Part shown: piece after piece, positions 6,061 to 26,061 of the stretch
How the letters are laid out: each line of letters begins with the position of its first letter
How positions within the stretch are numbered: the first letter of the stretch is position 1
The notes under the pieces: model-generated
The model's database searches: none
What the model was told of the DNA's origin: nothing
Seen by the model: the letters and a program-made list of their open reading frames with translations, nothing else
Translations under genes and position numbers: made by a program
From: a bacterium 1XD8-76
GTDB taxonomy: Bacteria; Bacillota; Clostridia; Lachnospirales; Lachnospiraceae
NCBI GenBank assembly: GCA_003611955.1
Contig: RAZE01000001.1
Span: 558,001 to 622,000 of the forward strand
Direction of reading: 5' to 3'
Length of the DNA stretch: 64,000 nt

Positions 6061-6076
6061 TAAGGAGAGTGTCTGA

Positions 6077-7426
6077 ATGAATCCTCAGGTCAGTATTATT
6101 GTGCCGGTCCACAATGCGCAGGCGACGCTTCCGCGCTGTATAAACAGTATTATCCATCAGGAATACACCGACTTTGAGCTATTGCTCGTCGATGACGGGA
6201 GCACCGATCGTTCGGGTGCCATCTGCGATGAGTTTGCCGCACAGGATGGGCGGGTCACAGTGATCCACAAGGAGAACAGCGGCGTTTCCGACGCCAGAAA
6301 TCTGGCTCTTTCCAGGGCGGCGGGGACGTATCTGCAGTTTGTGGACAGCGACGACTGGATCTCGCCGGACGCCACGAAGCGCTTTGTGAAAACAGCGCAG
6401 GAAAACGGGTGTGATCTGGTGATTGCGGATTTTTATCGTGTGATCGGGAAACGTTTGTCGCCCAAGGGAAATATCGATGAGGCGGGGCCCTTTTCCCGGG
6501 AGAAGTATGCGGCGTTTATGATGGAAAGTCCCGCGGATTTTTATTATGGAGTTCTGTGGAACAAACTGTTCCGCAGAGAGATCGTCGAGAAGTACGGACT
6601 CAGAATGGATCCGTCCGTGAGCTGGTGCGAAGACTTCATGTTCAATCTGGAGTATATTCGCCACGCGAAAGTGTTCTGCGCCATACAGATTCCGCTGTAC
6701 TATTATGTAAAGACAAAGGGCTCCCTGGCCTCCCAGGGGATGAATTTTTCCAGAACCGTGAGAATGAAGCGGGATGTGTTCGACTGTTATAATAATTTCT
6801 ATAAGAATATTTTTTCCGAGGAAGATTATGAGAAGATCCGCTTTCAGGTCTATCGCTTTCTGATCGATGCCGCCGGGGACGGAACGCTCTCCCTGGGGGC
6901 GAAAAAGCTGGAAAACCGGCTGTATATATCGATGGAGGCGCTCGGCGGAACAGGGGCTTTGGCGGAGGCCTACCGTTACAACAAACTTCTGGACTATTAT
7001 CTGGAGCCGATCGGCATAAAATATGATCTGTCTCTCCAGGATGTGCGTCTGCTGCTCTGCCTTGAGGGGACAGCATCTCCGTGCAGCAAGCGGGATCTGG
7101 CGGACAGGCTGGGGGAGACGTCCCAGGGGATCACCCACAGACTGCAGAAGCTGGCCGCGAGGGGATATTTGCAGACGGAGGAGGCCCTGCCGGGCAGACA
7201 GAGAGGGAATTCCAGAAAAATAAAGCGGATGCGGATCACATTTTTGCCGGATGCGGAAGCGATTTTAGAGGAACTGCGGCAGGCGGAAGCGGAGGATATG
7301 GAACTGCGTCTCTCCGGATTTACGGAGGAGGAGAAAGAGACCTACCAGAGGCTGACCCGGAAGATAGACTATAACATGCAGAGGGTACTCTCCAATTACG
7401 GGAGTATTCTGTCATCAGAAATTTAG
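6077..7426 (+). CDS. Family 2 glycosyltransferase fused to a MarR-like winged-helix domain
   Basis: 449 residues. Residues 1-230 are a GT-A fold family 2 glycosyltransferase: VSIIVPVHNAQATL, the nucleotide-binding VDDGSTD (38-44), the NSGVSDARN segment and the metal-binding DSDD (90-93). A helical linker (230-315) follows. Residues about 318-449 look like a MarR-type winged helix: LSLQDVRLLLCLE, a helix-turn-helix CSKRDLADRLGETSQGI, a basic wing (GNSRKIKRMRITFL) and a C-terminal dimer helix. Sugar transferase and DNA-binding modules in one chain is unusual. The acceptor and DNA target are unknown. Confidence 0.85.
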   Translation: MNPQVSIIVPVHNAQATLPRCINSIIHQEYTDFELLLVDDGSTDRSGAICDEFAAQDGRVTVIHKENSGVSDARNLALSRAAGTYLQFVDSDDWISPDATKRFVKTAQENGCDLVIADFYRVIGKRLSPKGNIDEAGPFSREKYAAFMMESPADFYYGVLWNKLFRREIVEKYGLRMDPSVSWCEDFMFNLEYIRHAKVFCAIQIPLYYYVKTKGSLASQGMNFSRTVRMKRDVFDCYNNFYKNIFSEEDYEKIRFQVYRFLIDAAGDGTLSLGAKKLENRLYISMEALGGTGALAEAYRYNKLLDYYLEPIGIKYDLSLQDVRLLLCLEGTASPCSKRDLADRLGETSQGITHRLQKLAARGYLQTEEALPGRQRGNSRKIKRMRITFLPDAEAILEELRQAEAEDMELRLSGFTEEEKETYQRLTRKIDYNMQRVLSNYGSILSSEI

Positions 7427-7440
7427 CGTAAGGAAAATCG

Positions 7441-9912
7441 ATGAAGAGAGAGACAGAGCGGAAACTGGATGAACTGATGGCCGGATATTTTCCCCATATA
7501 GGGGATAAGTTTAACGACTTGAAGCCGCAGCAGCAAAACTATATAGCGGAAATCCTGAACGGAAAGGATGTGATGGTCGTTATGCCGACTGCCGGCGGGA
7601 AGTCGATCTGTTTTCAGCTGCCTGCGCTGTACTGGGAGGATTCCATCACGATCGTTGTCTCGCCGCTGCGCGCCCTGATACGGGAACAGGTGGAGGAACT
7701 GAACAGGAGGGAAAAAGTGGCTGTCGTTATCGGCAGCCATTCTACGATAGACCTGATCTACGGTGGGGAGAGCGCGGAGGAGAAGAGATATAATGATATC
7801 ATAAATAAAGTATACAGACTGGTGTATGTCACGCCGGAGATGCTGGTGAACAATCAGTTTCTCCGGGTGGTGCGAAGAATACGCGAGGATGTGAAAATGG
7901 TGGCGGTCGATGAGGCGCACTGCGTTTCCACGTGGGGGTACAGCTTTCGGCCGGCCTATCTGGATATCAGGAGATTTGTCAGGACATTTCCGAAAAGGCC
8001 TGTCGTCTCCGCCTATACGGCTACGGCGACCAGATTTATCATGAGGGATACGGTCAGGGCGCTGGGAATGAGGCCGGAAAAACTGGAGGAGAGTCTGAAG
8101 TATGACAGACCGGATCTGATATTTCATGTAAAGCATATCTACACTTCGGAACAAAACAGCGCCAGGAATATCAAAGAGCACGAAGTGCTGAAGATAGTCC
8201 GTCAGAATGTGAAAAAGGGAAATCAGGGAATCATTTTCTGTGCGACGCCGGGGGAGGTAAACAGCATATACGGCTATCTTATATCGAAAAAGGACGAGCT
8301 CGGCTGCGGTATTTCCAAATACTACGGCGAGAAGATGAGCAATGAGGAGAGAAAGGCGAATCTGGAGGAGTTTATGTCGGGGGGATCCTCCCTTGTCATG
8401 GTGGCGACCAACGCGTTCGGAATGGGTATCAATATGCCGGGGCTTCGGTTTATTATTCACTACAATATACCTCTGTGCATTGAGAACTATTGTCAGGAGG
8501 CGGGAAGAGCGGCCAGGGGAAAGGGTGTGACCGCGGATTGCTACCTTCTGCATTCCAGGGCGGATGAAAAGATATGCCGCCTGCTGATCAGTAAAAATCC
8601 TTACCCGGACAGGAGAAAACTGGCGTACGATCGCCTGGAAAAGATGGTGGAGTATACGAAAAAAGACGGGGATGCGGAATTGTCAAACGAACTGCTCCAT
8701 CGGCGGATCAACGATTATTTCCAGAGGGCGGAGAAGGAAAACACGGAAGAGAGCGAGGATGCAGCGCAGAGATTCCCTCTCTATGTGAATCGCACGTATA
8801 TCGCGAATGAAATACGCAAGGGTGTCTACAAGGCGGGATTTGACGGAGAAAAGGAACTGCACTTCCGGAGCACAGAGAGCAGTGTGCGGTACAAACTGTA
8901 CGGGGAAAATTTGGAGGACGACGCGGAACTTACCTACTTTGACATGATGGTTGCGGACGCCGTCTATTCGCTGTGGATCAACAACAGGCCCATCTATGCG
9001 AAGAGTATCTGGATCATTCTGACCGGTGACGATCGGATCACTTTGAAGAGAGAAAAGAAGGAGATCATAGAGGAAAGCCTGAGAAAGCTTCAGAGGATAA
9101 GCGTCAAGATAGAGCAGCATAGGGCGGGAAATTTCGGGATGAAGCTGGAGGACGAGGAAGAGATCTTCGAGGGGGCGTTTTTGCCGTTTGAGGAGAGGGA
9201 GACGGAGACGGAACCCTATGTTCTGCAGTGTGTTCCGCCCCTGTATCTGTATGCCGAGATCCAGGGACAGTTTCATATATTTCGATGGGAACAGCTGAGG
9301 CTGCTGCAGATAGAGTGCGGGGAGTGTCTGAGGCCCGCTGTCAATGCGAAAGGAGAGCCCAAAAAGATACAGGCGACTGTGGAGAATACCATATTGAAAC
9401 ACTACCTGCTGCGCCGGATCGATCTGCTCTCTGCGCCCGGCACGGAAAATAAGGCTGCCCATAAGACGGAAGCGAAGAGAAAAAGGGGCGTCGTCCACGC
9501 CAAGAAGAGATCCGGCGTGTTGTCGGATAAAATAAATTATGTGCAGGCGGACGGAACGGATCTTCTGGAAAAAATGGGGGTGATCCGTGCGACGGACTAT
9601 AAGTACACATTGGCGCGCCGGCGGGAGGACATGGTCGGGACGTCTGTTCCCAGGAAGGATGAAGAGGGAAACTGGCAGTGCAGGGTGCTGAAAAAGGGGA
9701 GAATAGAAAAGATACTCGACTACTATGTGTATATGGAAATGCTGGTCGGATACGAGAGCAGGATCCACGAGGAGGAGATTCGTCCCGGCAGAGAGATGAT
9801 GTTCACCCAGATCCGATTGGATAGATATACAAAGAAAGATAAGCAGAAGTATGTTATCGATAGAAAAAATAGAGGAGAGAGTTTACAAATTAATATCGAT
9901 AAAATGAAATAA
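7441..9912 (+). CDS. RecQ-type DNA helicase with a replication-initiator-like C-terminal region
   Basis: 823 residues. The helicase core (1-400) has the Q-like motif, Walker A MPTAGGKS with K54, DEAH box 157-160 in VDEAHCVSTWGYSFRP, motif III SAYTATAT and motif VI QEAGRAARGKG. The usual RecQ zinc and HRDC domains are not apparent. Instead residues about 455-823 resemble clostridial plasmid/ICE replication initiators: LTYFDMMVADAVYSLW, a TLKREKKEIIEESLRKL helix, PPLYLYAEIQGQ, NTILKHYLLRRIDLL and a distal KINYVQ...IEKILDYYVYME segment. That similarity is from pattern memory. It likely unwinds DNA; initiator function is inference. Confidence 0.85.
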   Translation: MKRETERKLDELMAGYFPHIGDKFNDLKPQQQNYIAEILNGKDVMVVMPTAGGKSICFQLPALYWEDSITIVVSPLRALIREQVEELNRREKVAVVIGSHSTIDLIYGGESAEEKRYNDIINKVYRLVYVTPEMLVNNQFLRVVRRIREDVKMVAVDEAHCVSTWGYSFRPAYLDIRRFVRTFPKRPVVSAYTATATRFIMRDTVRALGMRPEKLEESLKYDRPDLIFHVKHIYTSEQNSARNIKEHEVLKIVRQNVKKGNQGIIFCATPGEVNSIYGYLISKKDELGCGISKYYGEKMSNEERKANLEEFMSGGSSLVMVATNAFGMGINMPGLRFIIHYNIPLCIENYCQEAGRAARGKGVTADCYLLHSRADEKICRLLISKNPYPDRRKLAYDRLEKMVEYTKKDGDAELSNELLHRRINDYFQRAEKENTEESEDAAQRFPLYVNRTYIANEIRKGVYKAGFDGEKELHFRSTESSVRYKLYGENLEDDAELTYFDMMVADAVYSLWINNRPIYAKSIWIILTGDDRITLKREKKEIIEESLRKLQRISVKIEQHRAGNFGMKLEDEEEIFEGAFLPFEERETETEPYVLQCVPPLYLYAEIQGQFHIFRWEQLRLLQIECGECLRPAVNAKGEPKKIQATVENTILKHYLLRRIDLLSAPGTENKAAHKTEAKRKRGVVHAKKRSGVLSDKINYVQADGTDLLEKMGVIRATDYKYTLARRREDMVGTSVPRKDEEGNWQCRVLKKGRIEKILDYYVYMEMLVGYESRIHEEEIRPGREMMFTQIRLDRYTKKDKQKYVIDRKNRGESLQINIDKMK

Positions 9913-10137
9913 ATAAAGCAAAAATTAAAGTATAATAATAATTAATTTATTACAATTTGCGGAGTATATAATTATTATAAAAGTAAAAATGAAAATTTCC
10001 ATTTCATTTTCAGCAAATGACGGAGTTTATGTTGGAGAGAAGATGACGGCCACACGATGTGCGTGTGGCCGTTGATGTTATCAAGGGCAAGGGCGGCTTG
10101 TGCCGCCCCGGTGGAAGTGAAAAAAGGAGGAAAACAG
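9913..10137 (+). promoter_or_regulatory. AT-rich intergenic region with leader hairpins ahead of the ClpP/VirD4 operon
   Basis: Bases 9913-10020 are strongly AT-rich, unlike the flanks, and include TTACAA (9950-9955) 17 bases before TATTAT, a possible promoter, and an AAAATGAAA/TTTCATTTT inverted repeat. Two GC-rich hairpins follow: 10047-10071 (CGGCCACAC stem) and 10091-10108 (GGGCGGC stem, TTGT loop). The first could end transcription of the helicase gene although it lacks a T run. An AT-rich tract beside an initiator-like gene could also be a relic origin; that is speculation. Confidence 0.45.
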
Positions 10138-10860
10138 ATGGAAAAGACAAACAGAGAATATATGGCGGAACCGGCCAGAGTGGAGAGGACGCTGCAGAGG
10201 TTCACGAAGATGACCTTGCATGAGCTGAAAGCTGTGCAGCAAAAGAAACGGAATTATGCGGAATGGTGCATGGACGGCGTGATTGCCATTGAAAACCTGG
10301 ACAGGGAGAAAGCGGAGACGATGAGTTATATGGACATCATATGTTTTCTGCACAATATCTGGGGGGACGACAGATATGCCGGAATAAGAAACGGCGACGG
10401 CACGGCATATCCGAGCGATCTATGTCAGGATTTCACATACAAGATGCTGGCGAGATTGCTGCTCGATGTACAGATGAAAAGCGTCCCGATACGACTTTTT
10501 ATGGAACTGCCCCTGAAGGCTTTCTATGGTTATCTGGAGAGAATCTCCGGGGACGCGCTCCTGTCCGGAGAATATCGGATGGTCTGCGATGAGTATGTGA
10601 AGCTGAAAGACTTATCGACTGTGGAACTGGCGGGCGTGTATGAGGCGACGATAAAGGACGTCCTGAGGCTGTGCAATAATGTGTTCTGCATGGCGTGGAT
10701 ACCTACGCAGATGGAGCTGGAGAACTACAGTCAGAGTATAATGAGCGCCTACCGCCTTGTGGAACGTCTGCTCGTGAAAAGCTTCAGGCTGGCGTTTCCG
10801 GAGCAGTTTTACATGGACAGGATACGGACGAGATACGCACAGGATCATAAAACCGCTTAA
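10138..10860 (+). CDS. Conserved-looking protein of unknown function upstream of clpP
   Basis: 240 residues, soluble, mostly helical by composition, no motif recognised. The N-terminal 60 residues are basic (TLQRFTKMTLHELKAVQQKK); the middle has MSYMDIICFLHNIWGDDRY and aromatic-rich stretches. ATG 10138 follows AAAAAAGGAGG with ideal spacing, so it is preferred over the upstream in-frame start. The ClpP-like gene follows 44 bases later and the VirD4-like gene is next, pointing to one operon. It might be a substrate, adaptor or regulator of that pair, but nothing in the sequence settles this. Confidence 0.7.
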   Translation: MEKTNREYMAEPARVERTLQRFTKMTLHELKAVQQKKRNYAEWCMDGVIAIENLDREKAETMSYMDIICFLHNIWGDDRYAGIRNGDGTAYPSDLCQDFTYKMLARLLLDVQMKSVPIRLFMELPLKAFYGYLERISGDALLSGEYRMVCDEYVKLKDLSTVELAGVYEATIKDVLRLCNNVFCMAWIPTQMELENYSQSIMSAYRLVERLLVKSFRLAFPEQFYMDRIRTRYAQDHKTA

Positions 10861-10904
10861 CAGACCGTTTCAAACGGGAAATTGGAAGAAAGGAAGGAAA
10901 AAAT

Positions 10905-11495
10905 ATGTCAAACATTGTTATGGAATCAGCGAGGGGATTAGAGTCCGTCCGGATCGAGGACGAGTTTCTGCGAAATAGAAAAATCTTTCTCACGGAGAGC
11001 GTAAACGAAAACACATGCGACGAACTTATAAAACAGCTTATGTATCTGGAAAAGGAGGATGCCGCAAAGGAGATCACGTTCTATATCAATTCACCGGGAG
11101 GAAACGTGCAGGAAGGTCTGGCGGTATACGACACGATCATGCTGCTCCACGCGCCGGTGCGGACCGTCTGCATCGGCACCTGCGCGTCCATGGGGGCCAT
11201 CCTCTTTCTGGCGGGCGGCAGACGGGAGATGATGAAACACGGAAAGATCATGATACACGACCCGGCTTTCGGCGGCCATCACAATGTGGGAGGAAAAAAG
11301 CCCCATGAAATTCAGGCGGAGCTGGATGACTTAAACCGCTGCAGAGAATCCCTTGCACGGATTATCGCCGAACGCACGGGAAAAAGCATGGAAGAAATCT
11401 ACGAAGTGACAGCGAAGGATACCTATTACAGCGCGGACGAAGCGGTAGAGTTTGGTCTGGCTACCGATATCCTGACAAAGAAGACGAGGAGGTAA
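10905..11495 (+). CDS. ClpP-type serine peptidase (accessory paralogue)
   Basis: 196 residues. Carries the full ClpP triad: S95 in GTCASMGA, H118 in IMIHDPAFGG and D172 in TAKDTYYSADEA, plus the oxyanion YINSPGGNV segment. It therefore should form a peptidase barrel needing an ATPase to feed it. Unlike housekeeping clpP it has no clpX next to it; the next gene, six bases downstream, encodes a VirD4-like hexameric-type ATPase. IHDP in place of the usual IHQP and the divergent N-terminus mark it as a paralogue. RBS AAGGAAGG. Confidence 0.88.
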   Translation: MSNIVMESARGLESVRIEDEFLRNRKIFLTESVNENTCDELIKQLMYLEKEDAAKEITFYINSPGGNVQEGLAVYDTIMLLHAPVRTVCIGTCASMGAILFLAGGRREMMKHGKIMIHDPAFGGHHNVGGKKPHEIQAELDDLNRCRESLARIIAERTGKSMEEIYEVTAKDTYYSADEAVEFGLATDILTKKTRR

Positions 11496-11501
11496 AGAAT
11501 A

Positions 11502-12803
11502 ATGACAAACAATAAAAATAACACACGTTACGGAATGCGCATGCTGGCACAGGGTGTGGAGGTCTCCAACGATACGAGACTCACGGGACTCAACAACAAC
11601 GACCTCATTGTGGGGAGCAGTGGATGCGGAAAGACAGGGGGCTATGTGGTGCCCGGTATTCAGCACGTTGACGGCAGTCTTGTAGTCTCGGACACGAAAG
11701 GGCAGCTTGAACGCAGGTTTGGAAAAGGGCTGCGGGAGAAGGGGTATGAGGTCTACACGCTGGACCTTGTGAATCCGATGCGCTCCTGCTGCTACAATCC
11801 GATGGCCTACATCAGAAAATACAGGGATGGCAGTTTCAGGGAACAGGATATCCTGTCGTTAGCCAGACTGTTGTGTCCGGTGGAGGATCACAGCGAGCCG
11901 ATCTGGGAGCTGTCGGCGGCAAACTATATCGCTTTTCTCATCAGCTACTGTCTGGAGACGGAATCCCTCCCCGGCCGGAATCTGCTCAGGGTGTATGAGC
12001 TCCACAGACAGTTTTCACAGGCGGACGGAGATCTGCAGTTTCTGGAGTGGATAAACGCCCATCCCGATACTTTCGCCGCCAGGAAGTACTCCGAGCTTAT
12101 GGCGAACAGGCCTGCAGACAAAATGTGGGCGAGCATCGAGGGGTTCGTCAACACGAAACTGGAGCCGTACAGTTTCCGGGAGGCAAAGTATCTCTTCTGC
12201 AGAGGGAGAAACTTTGACATCAAAAGCCTGGGCAGAAGAAAGACCGTACTGTTTCTGAACGTGAGCGATACGGACAGGACGTTCGACCGCATTTCCGATG
12301 TCTTCTATGCGCAGGCGCTGCAGGTGCTCTGCGCGGAGGCGGATTCGAATCCCGATGGCAGGCTGCGGGTTCCGGTAAGACTGATACTGGACGATTTCGC
12401 GGCCAGCGCGAGAATTCCGAACTTTGACAAAATCATTTCCGTGATTCGTTCCAGAGATATCAGCGTCAGTCTGATCATTCAGTCGCTCAGCCAGCTGGAA
12501 TCGATATACAGCGTACCGGTAAGCCGCACGATCCTCAATAATTGTGACCACATCCTCTTTATGGGAAACAGAGATTTTGAGACGGCGCGGTATATCGGGA
12601 ACTGTGCGGGAAAAACGCCGGAGACGATTCTCAGCATGCCGAGGGACAAAGCCTATCTGGTCAGCACCGGCGAAAAGGCTCGTCTGGTGACGAAGATAAA
12701 GCCCTACAGCACAGAGGAGTATACCCGGAGAGACAAAAATATGCCTGACAGGAATATATTTCAGAAAACGGGGCATATTGACAAGTCAGGGGAGATAAAT
12801 TAA
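11502..12803 (+). CDS. VirD4/TraG-like ATPase without membrane anchor
   Basis: 433 residues. Walker A is GSSGCGKT (38-45) and Walker B LILDDFA (about 294-300), followed by the family segment SVIRSRDISVSLIIQSLSQLESIY and NNCDHILFMGN typical of type IV coupling proteins. VVSDTKGQLERRFGKGLREKGY is the TraG/VirD4 strand after Walker A. Coupling proteins normally have N-terminal membrane helices and 600 or more residues; here the ATPase domain starts at once. No relaxase or other secretion gene is nearby. Six bases after clpP, so coexpression is near certain. It may feed DNA or protein to a partner. Confidence 0.85.
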   Translation: MTNNKNNTRYGMRMLAQGVEVSNDTRLTGLNNNDLIVGSSGCGKTGGYVVPGIQHVDGSLVVSDTKGQLERRFGKGLREKGYEVYTLDLVNPMRSCCYNPMAYIRKYRDGSFREQDILSLARLLCPVEDHSEPIWELSAANYIAFLISYCLETESLPGRNLLRVYELHRQFSQADGDLQFLEWINAHPDTFAARKYSELMANRPADKMWASIEGFVNTKLEPYSFREAKYLFCRGRNFDIKSLGRRKTVLFLNVSDTDRTFDRISDVFYAQALQVLCAEADSNPDGRLRVPVRLILDDFAASARIPNFDKIISVIRSRDISVSLIIQSLSQLESIYSVPVSRTILNNCDHILFMGNRDFETARYIGNCAGKTPETILSMPRDKAYLVSTGEKARLVTKIKPYSTEEYTRRDKNMPDRNIFQKTGHIDKSGEIN

Positions 12804-12829
12804 ATTATTAAAACAAGGAGAAGCAGTAT

Positions 12830-13366
12830 ATGAGTAAATATGTAGGGACACAGACGGGGAAAAATCTGGAGGCGGCCTTTGCGGGCGAGTCGGAGGCGAG
12901 AAACAAATACACCTATTTTGCGTCCGTTGCCAGAAAAGAAGGGTATGAGCAGATCGCCGCGCTGTTTCTGGACACGGCAAACAATGAGAAAGAACACGCG
13001 AAATTGTGGTTTAAGGAGATGGAGGGCATCGGGGATACGGCCTACAATCTCGCCTCGGCGGCGGACGGAGAAAACTATGAGTGGACAGATATGTACGCGG
13101 GGTTTGCGAAGACGGCGGAGGAAGAGGGTTTCACAGAGCTGGCGGCAAAATTCCGCATGGTGGCTGAGGTTGAGAAACATCATGAGGAGCGTTACAGAGC
13201 GCTGTTAAAGAACGTGGAGACAGCAAGAGTATTTGAGAAGAGTGAAGTGAAGGTCTGGGAATGCAGAAACTGCGGGCATATCGTGGTGGGCAAAAAGGCG
13301 CCGGGGATCTGTCCGGTGTGTGATCACCCTCAGGCTTATTTCGAGGTGAAGGCGGAAAATTACTGA
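12830..13366 (+). CDS. Rubrerythrin
   Basis: 178 residues, a full-length rubrerythrin that reduces hydrogen peroxide in anaerobes. The N-terminal ferritin-like four-helix domain has the di-iron ligands in [30 protein letters not shown] and VEKHHEERY. The C-terminal rubredoxin-like domain (about 143-172) has [10 protein letters not shown] and [11 protein letters not shown] 12830 follows AAGGAGAAG. The DUF4422 gene starts one base after the stop, which hints at readthrough or coupling although the functions look unrelated. Confidence 0.95.
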
Positions 13367-13367
13367 G

Positions 13368-14450
13368 ATGTCTACAAAAATTTTTGTTATGACCCACAAG
13401 CTGTTTGAACAGCCAAAAAATGCAATGTATATTCCCATGCAGGTAGGGCACGCGCTGAGCGGGACGCTGCATGGGGATTACCTGCGCGATGACGACGGGA
13501 AGGATAATATTTCGGCACAGAATCCGTATTTCAGCGAACTGACCGGTATGTACTGGGTGTGGAAACACTGGAGGGAGACGGAGAATGTGGGAATCTGTCA
13601 TTACAGACGTTTTCCGGTGATGCGTGAGCGGCAGGGGGGCCCGGAGCGGCTCATGACGGAGGCGGACTGTGAGCGGATCCTGAGGGAGTATGATCTGATC
13701 ACAACGGAAAAACTTACACTTCACAGCAATTATTACGACGGCTTTGCGGTGGACCATAATCTCTATGATCTGCAGGTGACGGAACAGGTCGTCCGGGAAA
13801 AATATCCGGCATATTATGACTGCTTTGAGGCGTTGGTACATAACAATAAAGTGTATTTCGGAAATATCTGTGTGATGCCGAAAGGGCTCTACGACGCATA
13901 CTGCAGCTGGCTGTTTGATATTTTGTTTGAGGTTCAGGGAAGAATCGACGTGAGCGGGTATGACGGGTATCGAAAGCGCGTCTTTGGGTTTTTGTCCGAG
14001 TTTTTGCAGATGGTATGGATACAGGTAAACCATCTGCGCCCTTACGAATGTCGGATCGCGATCATCGGGGAAAAGTTTGAGACGGGGGAGGTGAAGCGCG
14101 CCCTGTCGGATCTTTTCGCGAAAAAGGATGTGTGCGGCGCAAAGGAGTATTTTCTGGAATGTTATGAGAAGAGGCCTGATATTTTGATGGAAGCTTCGGA
14201 TATCACCGGCGAGCTGCGCATCTGTATGCAGATCATCTCCACCTGCGAGTTTGAGAAACGGTTTCTGGGGAGCTGTATCCTGGACAAAGAGAGGGATATG
14301 AAAAAGCTCGTCTCACTGTTTAAAGCTTTGAATATGGCAGTGCTGCGAAAAAGCAGAGGAGAGGAGACAGAGGAAGACAGGAAGCTCTTAGCGGGAGATC
14401 TGATCTCGGAGCCGGCGGTGCAGGTGGCAATGCAGGTGATGAAAATATAA
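13368..14450 (+). CDS. DUF4422 domain protein (putative glycosyltransferase)
   Basis: 360 residues. The first 230 match the DUF4422 pattern: KIFVMTHKLF at the start, IPMQVGHAL, ISAQNPYFSELTGMYWVWKH, VGICHYRRF, TTEKLTL and FGNICVMPKGLYDAYCSWLFDIL. DUF4422 proteins occur in capsule and exopolysaccharide loci and are regarded as glycosyltransferases. Residues 230-360 are an added helical region without a recognised domain. The start lies directly after the rubrerythrin stop and uses a site inside that gene (GAGGTGAAGG, about 20 bases upstream). Confidence 0.8.
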   Translation: MSTKIFVMTHKLFEQPKNAMYIPMQVGHALSGTLHGDYLRDDDGKDNISAQNPYFSELTGMYWVWKHWRETENVGICHYRRFPVMRERQGGPERLMTEADCERILREYDLITTEKLTLHSNYYDGFAVDHNLYDLQVTEQVVREKYPAYYDCFEALVHNNKVYFGNICVMPKGLYDAYCSWLFDILFEVQGRIDVSGYDGYRKRVFGFLSEFLQMVWIQVNHLRPYECRIAIIGEKFETGEVKRALSDLFAKKDVCGAKEYFLECYEKRPDILMEASDITGELRICMQIISTCEFEKRFLGSCILDKERDMKKLVSLFKALNMAVLRKSRGEETEEDRKLLAGDLISEPAVQVAMQVMKI

Positions 14451-24489: not shown

Positions 24490-26061
24490 ATGGGAAATTA
24501 TTTGAATCCGGGGAATGAGAATTTTTATAAAGTGATAAATTCTGAAATATATGTGGACAAGACCGGGCTCCTGAAATATACGAACAGGGTGATCAATACC
24601 CTGCAGGGATATATCTGCGTCAGCCGTCCCCGTCGTTTCGGGAAATCGACAGCAGCATATATGCTGGCGGCCTATTACGGCAGAGAGTGTGACTCGAAAG
24701 AATTATTTTCCGGTCTTGAAATTGCGGAGAGTGAGGATTTTTCAACATATCTGAATCGGTACGACACGATTTTCCTGAATATGCAGGAGTTTTTAAGCCA
24801 GAGCAAAGATGTGCAGGAAATGCTTGATTTGCTTAAAAAGAGCGTTCTCTGGGATTTGCTGGAGAAATATCCCGAATACCGCTATTTTGATAAAACGAAT
24901 CTGACGAGAACGATGCAGGACATATACAGTAAGTCAAAAGTTCCTTTTGTTGTGATTATCGATGAATGGGATTGTGTTTTTCGTGAATACAAAAATGACA
25001 GGCCGGCCTAGGCGCAGTATCTTGATTTCCTGCGGGATTTGCTGAAGGATAAACGATATATTGCCATGGCATATATGACCGGAATTTTACCGATCAGGAA
25101 GTACGGAACGCAGTCGGCGCTCAATATGTTTGACGAGTTTTCTATGATCGATCCGGGACCGCTGTCGGAATATGTGGGATTTACAGAAGAGGAAGTGGAA
25201 GAACTTTGCGGACAGTATAAAATGGACATCGAAGAGGTGAAAAGCTGGTATGACGGATATTCTTTTGAAGGCGCCAAATCTGTGTACAGCCCCCGCTCGG
25301 TGGTAAGCTGTATGCGCTTCCGGAAAATGGGAAATTACTGGAATCAGACGGAGACGTTTGAGACGTTGCAAATTTATATTGATATGAATTTTGACGGATT
25401 GCGGGAAGATGTGCTGAGCATGATCGCGGGGGACAGGATTCCGGTGGATACGGGGAGTTTTACGAACGACATGGTTACGCTGCGGACGGAGGACGATGTT
25501 TTTACGTTGTTGATTCATCTCGGATATCTTGGATACGATGAGAGAGATCGATGCGTATTTATTCCAAACGGAGAAGTGCGCTCAGAATATGTGAATGCAG
25601 TTTCTGTATCGGAATGGGGAGAAGTATCGAAAGCGTTGAAAAATTCTGCGGACACATTAAATGCGATCTGGCAGGGGAGGCCGAAGCAGGTGGCGGAAGG
25701 GATACGGCAGGCCCATTTTGAAACTTCACATATACAGTATAATGATGAGAATGCGTTGAGCTATACGATTTCGCTTGCGCTTTACGCAGCCCGCAATTTT
25801 TATACGGTGCACAGGGAACTGGCCGGAGGAAAGGGCTTTGCGGATCTGGTATTCCTTCCGCGAAAACAGTTTCAGGATAAACCGGCGCTTGTGGTGGAGT
25901 TAAAGTGGGATAAGGATGCCCGGGGAGCGATAGAACAGATTAAGGAAAGAGAATATTGTAAAAGTCTGGAAGGATATGAGGGAAATATCATTTTGGTCGG
26001 TGTGAATTATGAGGTAAAGTCAAAGGAACATACATGTGTTATCGAGTGGCACGAAAGATGA
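24490..26061 (+). pseudogene. AAA ATPase/PD-(D/E)XK nuclease-like gene broken by one amber codon
   Basis: Two in-frame pieces of 173 and 340 residues are separated by TAG at 25009-25011; sequence either side (NDRPA, then AQYLDFLRDLLKDKRY) is continuous with the family, so one substitution broke a 523-codon gene. The N-terminal part has YVDKTGLLKY, a P-loop RPRRFGKST (GKST 51-54) and VIIDEWDCVF. The C-terminal part has a nuclease-like core FADLVFLPR...ALVVELKW. Such genes are multicopy in gut Firmicutes and Bacteroidetes and of unknown role. Readthrough at the amber codon cannot be excluded. Confidence 0.9.

Follow-up and report, generated by a model that had tools for sequence, protein, structure and literature searches.

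A conserved operon pairing a ClpP-type peptidase with an anchorless VirD4-like ATPase in Lachnospiraceae

A three-gene operon of bacterium 1XD8-76 (Lachnospiraceae; GenBank assembly GCA_003611955.1, contig RAZE01000001.1, positions 558,001 to 622,000) joins a ClpP-family serine peptidase (P0002) to an ATPase of the VirD4/TraG type that has lost its membrane anchor (P0003), with a gene for a helical protein (P0001) ahead of both. The whole stretch of 64,000 nucleotides that was analysed is referred to here as the window. A dedicated module of ClpP, ATPase and third protein is supported by the conservation of the pairing across genomes, by the joint divergence of the two partners and by a Walker-B change that is specific to this subfamily of ATPases. 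Together, the peptidase and the ATPase look like a so far undescribed machine for protein degradation that may act against invading DNA elements.

The initial annotation of this DNA had recognised an operon from the gene spacing. The gaps, 44 bases between P0001 and P0002 and 6 bases between P0002 and P0003, were confirmed, all three genes lie on the same (+) strand, and a purine-rich ribosome-binding site can be seen by eye before each. Its remark that no Clp unfoldase is nearby also held, as no open reading frame (ORF) of the 64-kb window matches a ClpA-like profile or, in a query search, the ClpX of this genome. Likewise, single VirB4, TrbL, PrgI and NlpC/P60 queries gave no match in the window (a relaxase was not searched for), in keeping with its statement that the ATPase has no secretion partner.

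Linkage of the ClpP and VirD4-like genes

Six VirD4-like proteins, already known to be linked to ClpP, were aligned and used to collect 216 relatives from GTDB contigs. The best 80 of the 216, ranked by VirD4 similarity alone and without use of ClpP, were examined; they include three of the seeds (L062, L064 and L068) and a near copy of the window (L056). Of the 80 loci, 72 have a ClpP gene on the same strand no farther than 1.1 kb away; with the seeds and the near copy set aside, the count is 68 of 76. The co-occurrence that the initial annotation proposed to look for thus recurs in other genomes, and the linkage, which it had considered might fail in relatives, is kept. Among the unlinked loci, L063 offers just 83 bases of upstream sequence, the contigs of L083 and L107 are short or cut, the ClpP gene of L084 is 2.9 kb from the VirD4-like gene, and that of L120 stands 7 kb away, next to another gene of the VirD4 type. 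In 69 of 76 pairs, the ClpP gene comes before that of the ATPase. The gap between them ranges from −8 to 30 bases in 47 of the 76 pairs (exactly −4 in 18 of these) and exceeds 250 bases in eight, with ambiguous start codons in 11 pairs. The pairwise distances of the ClpP and VirD4-like partners are correlated (r = 0.857), a value reached by none of 2000 shuffles, in a test covering 95 of 97 pairs after truncated pairs were left out.

A second, diverged pair is present on contig C33 of the same genome; its ClpP and VirD4-like proteins are 48% and 40% identical, respectively, to those of the window. Together with the linkage in the ranked loci, this second pair places the association beyond chance. 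Six accession prefixes occur two or three times each among the 80 loci, and one locus (L115) carries two tandem ClpP-VirD4 pairs within ∼7 kb. Isolates that possess a pair include Schaedlerella arabinosiphila DSM 106076 and Butyrivibrio sp. AE2015 (loci L059 and L079). Within the genus, linked pairs occur in four of nine genomes (G000, G003, G006 and G008). Among the top 30 loci from 397 sampled genomes of the family, 24 (one per genome, the window's included) have an adjoining ClpP gene, and the remaining six encode proteins of 481–624 residues of the DE type defined below. Outside the family, linked pairs were found in three genomes of the same class (G710, G783 and G564) and one of the same phylum (G831), with 391 and 398 genomes sampled. 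The possibility of plasmid or phage cargo was rejected: matches to plasmid and phage records all fell below 60% identity, and the annotated plasmids among the best 20 of 69 matching records are mostly called conjugative. A single viral-labelled contig (L171, from IMG/VR) carries a ClpP-VirD4 pair.

The VirD4-like ATPase

P0003 matches Pfam families T4SS-DNA_transf (PF02534, E = 1.4e-42) and PF12696, and passes the cut-off of the NCBIfam model conju_CD1115 (NF045973; 260.9 bits, cut-off 250). Its predicted model, with a predicted local distance difference test (pLDDT) score of 89.5, resembles the soluble domains of coupling proteins, namely Cagbeta (PDB 8dol, E = 2e-18, TMq 0.70) and TrwB deltaN70. 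Other structural neighbours in the PDB are an anti-phage defence complex (8xaw), trimeric HerA (8yhx), the DndH C-domain (7es4) and TdpAB (8wfd). The absence of membrane helices noted by the initial annotation was borne out, with no transmembrane-like segment found in P0003.

The Walker-B glutamate of coupling proteins is catalytic. We aligned 136 VirD4-like proteins, from 83 loci and from 53 additional hits of the genome searches; counts over 83 or 136 loci given here include the repeats L051=L068, L022=L152 and L024=L161. The second Walker-B acid is aspartate in 96 of the 97 ClpP-linked proteins, the remaining one being gapped at this position (96 of 96 readable), and among the 39 unlinked proteins it is glutamate in 30 and aspartate in nine. 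These variants are referred to as DD-type and DE-type. None of the 30 Glu-type conjugative relatives has ClpP in its flanks, which mostly span ∼1 kb and are occasionally shorter. Another set, of 54 loci that partly overlap the first, gave the same division: the genuine DD-type proteins are linked to ClpP in nine of nine cases (with L172, L173 and L218 as repeats) and the DE-type proteins in none of 43, while L223, also called DD, matches the pattern spuriously and lacks ClpP, and L210 was not scored. A single split with a support of 0.93 separates the two types (103 and 29 sequences) when column 298 is masked, and the DD-type ATPases form one clade. A transmembrane-like segment before Walker A occurs in none of 105 DD-type proteins and in 25 of 30 DE-type proteins. 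Fragments of one more VirD4-like gene of the kind described here, in decay, are present in G008 (L054).

The third VirD4-like gene of the genome, on contig C27, is an ordinary conjugation gene, with TrbL, PrgI, an NlpC/P60 protein and a P-loop protein of the VirB4 type nearby. Single queries for these four markers, taken from the C27 module, were searched with tblastn at 1e-5. The initial annotation had considered that homologues of the ATPase might always sit inside conjugation modules; all four markers are absent from the 83 loci (∼1.34 Mb, window included). In 73 mostly DE-type control loci (L022 and L215 are DD-type), most of them with ∼1 kb of flank, TrbL was found in 34, PrgI in two, VirB4 in one and NlpC/P60 in one, counting the query's own locus. 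No relaxase is among the 25 commonest of the 97 Pfam families found in 147 neighbouring proteins, although no relaxase query was run.

The ClpP peptidase

P0002 is a clear member of the Pfam family CLP_protease (PF00574, E = 1.9e-50) and matches solved ClpPs with E = 3e-38. Residues S95, H118 and D172 align with what we take to be the catalytic positions of solved ClpP, so that the triad reported by the initial annotation is indeed intact; in the linked ClpPs these residues are kept in 95 of 95, 95 of 95 and 93 of 95 proteins, respectively. By homology to solved ClpPs, P0002 would form a tetradecameric barrel. It is 38% identical to the other ClpP of the genome, on contig C25, which is likely the housekeeping ClpP and by eye lies between trigger-factor-like and ClpX-like genes; the median identity of the linked ClpPs to this protein is 36%. 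P0002 scores 174 bits against the general ClpP model, below its cut-off of 249, and 93 bits against the ClpP-related head maturation model NF045542 (cut-off 120). Inspection of the docking-groove residues, at positions that we presume to correspond, gave nothing decisive.

The third protein

P0001 matches no Pfam, NCBIfam or PADLOC model. Its AlphaFold2 model is all-helical and of high quality (pLDDT 90.8; predicted template modelling score 0.88), and a fold search of the PDB gave no match (best E = 0.84). Homologues occupy the same operon in relatives, and 25 sequences could be aligned. A family of neighbouring proteins, f9, is clearly homologous to the P0001 family (hhalign 99.4%, E = 4e-21), and a further one, f8, is probably homologous to it at the N-terminus, judging from the profile comparison (91.5%, E = 9e-7). 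With the P0001, f9 and f8 profiles combined, a member of the family is recognised in 53 of the 83 loci at an E-value of 0.01, in 50 at 0.001 and in 46 at 1e-5. In L093 and L098, the member consists of two adjoining half-length genes. The C33 pair is followed by a 322-residue protein that has no assigned family and shows no profile link to the P0001 family. We propose that P0001 is an adaptor or specificity factor.

Genomic neighborhood

The genes of the operon and other features of interest are listed in Table 1. P0001 is preceded by P0004, and P0003 is followed by genes that, from their sequence, appear rubrerythrin- and glycosyltransferase-like. P0004 scores 265 bits against TIGR00614 (cut-off 219.8) and does not reach the cut-off of canonical recQ (TIGR01389; 301 versus 640). 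P0004-like helicases lie near 11 of the 83 loci, window included, and nine of the other ten also align beyond residue 447, in the extension of P0004. Among the nine genomes of the genus, full-length P0004 is found only in G000 and G008, which both have the window-type operon; four others match its helicase core only and three have no match. P0004 is possibly an accessory gene outside the conserved core. Farther along the window, two successive open frames cluster with a single 587-residue protein of a relative, so the gene may be split in two.

Table 1. Positions of the operon genes and of other features discussed in the text.
Feature	Location	Strand	Remarks
P0001, 240 residues	window, 10138-10860	+	all-helical, fast-diverging family beside ClpP/VirD4-like pairs
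P0002, 196 residues, ClpP-family serine peptidase	window, 10905-11495	+	triad S95/H118/D172
P0003, 433 residues, anchorless VirD4/TraG-type ATPase	window, 11502-12803	+	Walker A GSSGCGKT, Walker B D297-D298
P0004, 823 residues, RecQ-type helicase with long C-terminal extension	window, 7441-9912	+	TIGR00614
Second pair (L010)	C33:25000-44900, 6069-13381		ClpP-VirD4 behind 1409-residue protein
f5/f6 examples	L072:7863-9781, L129:5949-8515, L124:12956-14747, and others		
Two successive open frames	window, 24490-26061	+	cluster with one protein of a relative
Decayed VirD4-like gene	L054 (G008:C19), ∼8615-9183		fragments
Tandem ClpP-VirD4 pairs	L115:9217-16456		
ClpX-like ATPases	L092:11959-13047, L112:6694-7710		distant
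Pair with type III CRISPR locus	L052:9256-18914 (G006:C7)		
Very large proteins	L060:4558-8352, L099:3181-6414		1264 and 1077 residues

For clustering of the neighbours, 83 loci were used: 79 of the 80 ranked loci (without L056), the window, L010, L051 and L052. Family tallies cover 147 of the 231 proteins that neighbour the operons; no more than two were taken from each side, and the window, L068 and proteins longer than 1300 residues were left out. The commonest Pfam family among them is AAA (9 of 147). In PADLOC these 147 proteins matched 83 families; among the 25 of them that were listed, PDC-M37B and DolB have six matches each, mad8 four and IetA three, and others, e.g. GajB, two; several probably come through generic motor domains. 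Of the window's own proteins, P0002 has no match in PADLOC-DB 2.0.0, P0003 has only a weak match to mad8 (24 bits), and helicase models, DpdF among them, match the motor of P0004.

The pair on C33 stands behind a protein with ClpB-like AAA, FtsH-like AAA and peptidase M41 domains, relatives of which occur in four loci with HEAGH in each. Two families recur near the pairs, f5 (10 of 83 loci) and f6 (9 of 83), and both are present in six loci; the members scanned have no Pfam or NCBIfam match. Proteins that look similar by eye are encoded ahead of the C33 pair in divergent orientation. One family of very large proteins is represented near pairs in L060 and L099, and the L060 member has no Pfam match. 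In L052, the ClpP-VirD4 pair and two unknown genes are followed by a type III clustered regularly interspaced short palindromic repeat (CRISPR) locus with Cas6, RAMP and a Cas10 match just under its cut-off.

A few loci contain a ClpA-like double AAA+ ATPase, the domains of which were scanned in L108. From the alignment, in which residue 63 of the L070 protein falls at residue 183 of ClpA, these ATPases seem to lack a ClpA-type N-domain. A [IVL]GF motif directly follows TTNAG in five of five, aligned with the VGF of ClpE in a PDB alignment, and this IGF-type motif falls on the ClpP-docking loop in the alignment. A ClpA-like profile at 1e-110 had no match in the 397 genomes of the family, with three candidates scored per genome and a positive control on other genomes; given these settings, the form can be called rare and no more.

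Proposed function and alternatives

The products of the three genes may constitute a private, cytosolic ATP-dependent protease. In this proposal, a ClpP barrel distinct from the housekeeping ClpP would couple to a hexameric ATPase ring that descends from a conjugative VirD4/TraG-type protein and has lost the membrane anchor and secretion partners. The ring would dock on or gate ClpP in a physical complex, so that substrates would pass to ClpP and not to a secretion channel, and the quickly diverging helical protein of the P0001 family would be the adaptor that chooses the substrate. We put forward this combination of ClpP, domesticated coupling-protein ring and adaptor tentatively as the likeliest and simplest reading, with a confidence slightly short of even.

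Several observations weigh against it. A P0001-family homologue was not recognised by profile search in 30 of the 83 loci, and in the near-identical G008 locus P0001 has lost an internal stretch in frame, next to an intact ClpP and ATPase; because of this deletion, P0001 may be dispensable or the G008 copy may be decaying. The DD-type genes of L067, L082 and L124 have no ClpP within ∼10 kb. The ATPase ring showed no motif for docking on ClpP, no ClpP-VirD4 fusion was found in three ORF sets, and the Walker-B change from glutamate to aspartate could slow hydrolysis. The joint divergence would also be expected from the shared descent of operon genes. As for the conjugation markers, TrbL alone has a working control, since the control loci are short and the query's own locus is counted. 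Finally, a ClpA-like ATPase is found in five of the 83 loci, with the VirD4-like gene kept there, and distant ClpX-like ATPases lie near the pairs of L092 and L112 (26% and 28% identical to the C25 ClpX-like protein, respectively). Since five loci add an unfoldase with a docking motif and two a ClpX-like ATPase, the ring may not be the unfoldase and may have another task. The idea of the initial annotation that the ring feeds substrates to ClpP stands in part: a dedicated module is supported by conservation, and feeding by the ring is one possibility.

The same ATPases suggest a different division of labour, in which the VirD4-like ring would be a DNA- or substrate-bound receptor that, with the P0001-family protein, gathers targets for a real Clp unfoldase, which would deliver them to the dedicated ClpP. 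The unfoldase would be ClpX or ClpC of the host or, where present, the operon's own ClpA-like protein. The docking-loop motif agrees with this arrangement, as do the distant ClpX-like ATPases and the fact that all five ClpA-like copies seen in four of the host genomes, which were themselves identified from these loci, lie in ClpP-VirD4 loci. The genome of the window has a ClpX-like gene (C25, by eye) as well as a ClpC-like gene on C12 and a ClpB-like gene on C1, both judged by length and match. The Walker-B aspartate would fit a slower, switch-like ATPase, and the RecQ-like helicase variant near 11 of the 83 loci also counts in favor of this arrangement. However, 78 of the 83 loci have no ClpA-like gene in the stretch examined, and ClpP and the VirD4-like protein are nearly always together; we consider the receptor role less likely than not. 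Two other origins were dismissed. That the VirD4-like gene is a stray conjugative remnant beside a ClpP gene has next to no probability: P0003 passes the NF045973 cut-off and a real conjugation module exists on C27, but the linkage, the monophyly, the intact motifs, the loss of the anchor and the absence of the tested conjugation genes nearby speak against this origin. It is just as improbable that the ClpP is the head-maturation protease of a prophage remnant. Its NF045542 match is weak and below the cut-off, the general ClpP model scores higher and the neighbours look ordinary chromosomal by eye; it was rejected on the model scores, capsid and terminase genes not having been searched for.

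Either mechanism, protease or receptor, would be compatible with an anti-phage or anti-plasmid module that degrades invader or host proteins upon sensing foreign DNA, which is possible, though some way from probable. The initial annotation had suggested a role in defence or element control together with the upstream helicase. This is favored by the patchy distribution in the genus, the several diverged copies per genome (two in that of the window), the fast evolution of the third protein, the helicase variant near 11 loci, the UvrD or PD-(D/E)XK genes in L106, L109 and L130, and the one type III CRISPR locus beside a pair. The PADLOC scan, in contrast, is weak, with few matches per family; housekeeping genes are common as neighbours, and viral contigs contain just one relative. 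The broadest version would be a compartmental protease of a new class. Its motor on ClpP would derive from conjugation and have the HerA/FtsK fold in place of an AAA+ unfoldase; with a fast-evolving helical adaptor, it would tie the sensing of DNA elements, by the helicase and the coupling-protein ring, to targeted proteolysis and so serve gut Clostridia in immunity. This version seems unlikely to us. If a private protease is correct, the conserved monophyletic pairing would represent a new kind of partner for a protease and a clear example of a motor for DNA or protein export that was recruited for proteolysis. A handle would also be gained on an uncharacterised operon that at least 24 of the 397 genomes sampled from one family carry, with single finds in other families.

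Relationship to known systems

Among the papers listed in an open-access library, with subscription papers mostly outside its scope, none was found to describe a pairing of ClpP with a VirD4-like protein. This agrees with the initial annotation, where no described system of this form was known; VirD4 is not mentioned in the accessible part of PMC7159879. The Dodola anti-phage system employs a ClpB-like ATPase, and the available part of its description mentions neither a ClpP peptidase nor a VirD4-like ring (PMC11514479). Six proteins neighbouring our operons match the DolB model, presumably through the AAA+ core.

The HerA-type defence ATPases resemble P0003 as structural neighbours of its model. 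HerA complexes have nuclease partners; the titles of the four PDB entries name no ClpP, and the P0003 sequence matches coupling-protein models. Type IV coupling proteins (VirD4, TrwB, TraD, Cagbeta and the CD1115 family) share with P0003 the Walker A motif, the fold and the C-terminal motor motifs, but the P0003 type differs from them in its missing anchor, its DD rather than DE Walker B, its ClpP neighbour and the absence of the four tested conjugation genes. In the described Clp proteases (ClpXP, ClpAP, ClpCP and ClpEP), the partners of the ClpP barrel are AAA+ unfoldases. The operon resembles them in its ClpP with an intact triad and, in five relatives, in the additional ClpA-like unfoldase; however, its constant ATPase is a VirD4/TraG-type, HerA/FtsK-like ring instead of a member of the Hsp100/AAA+ group.

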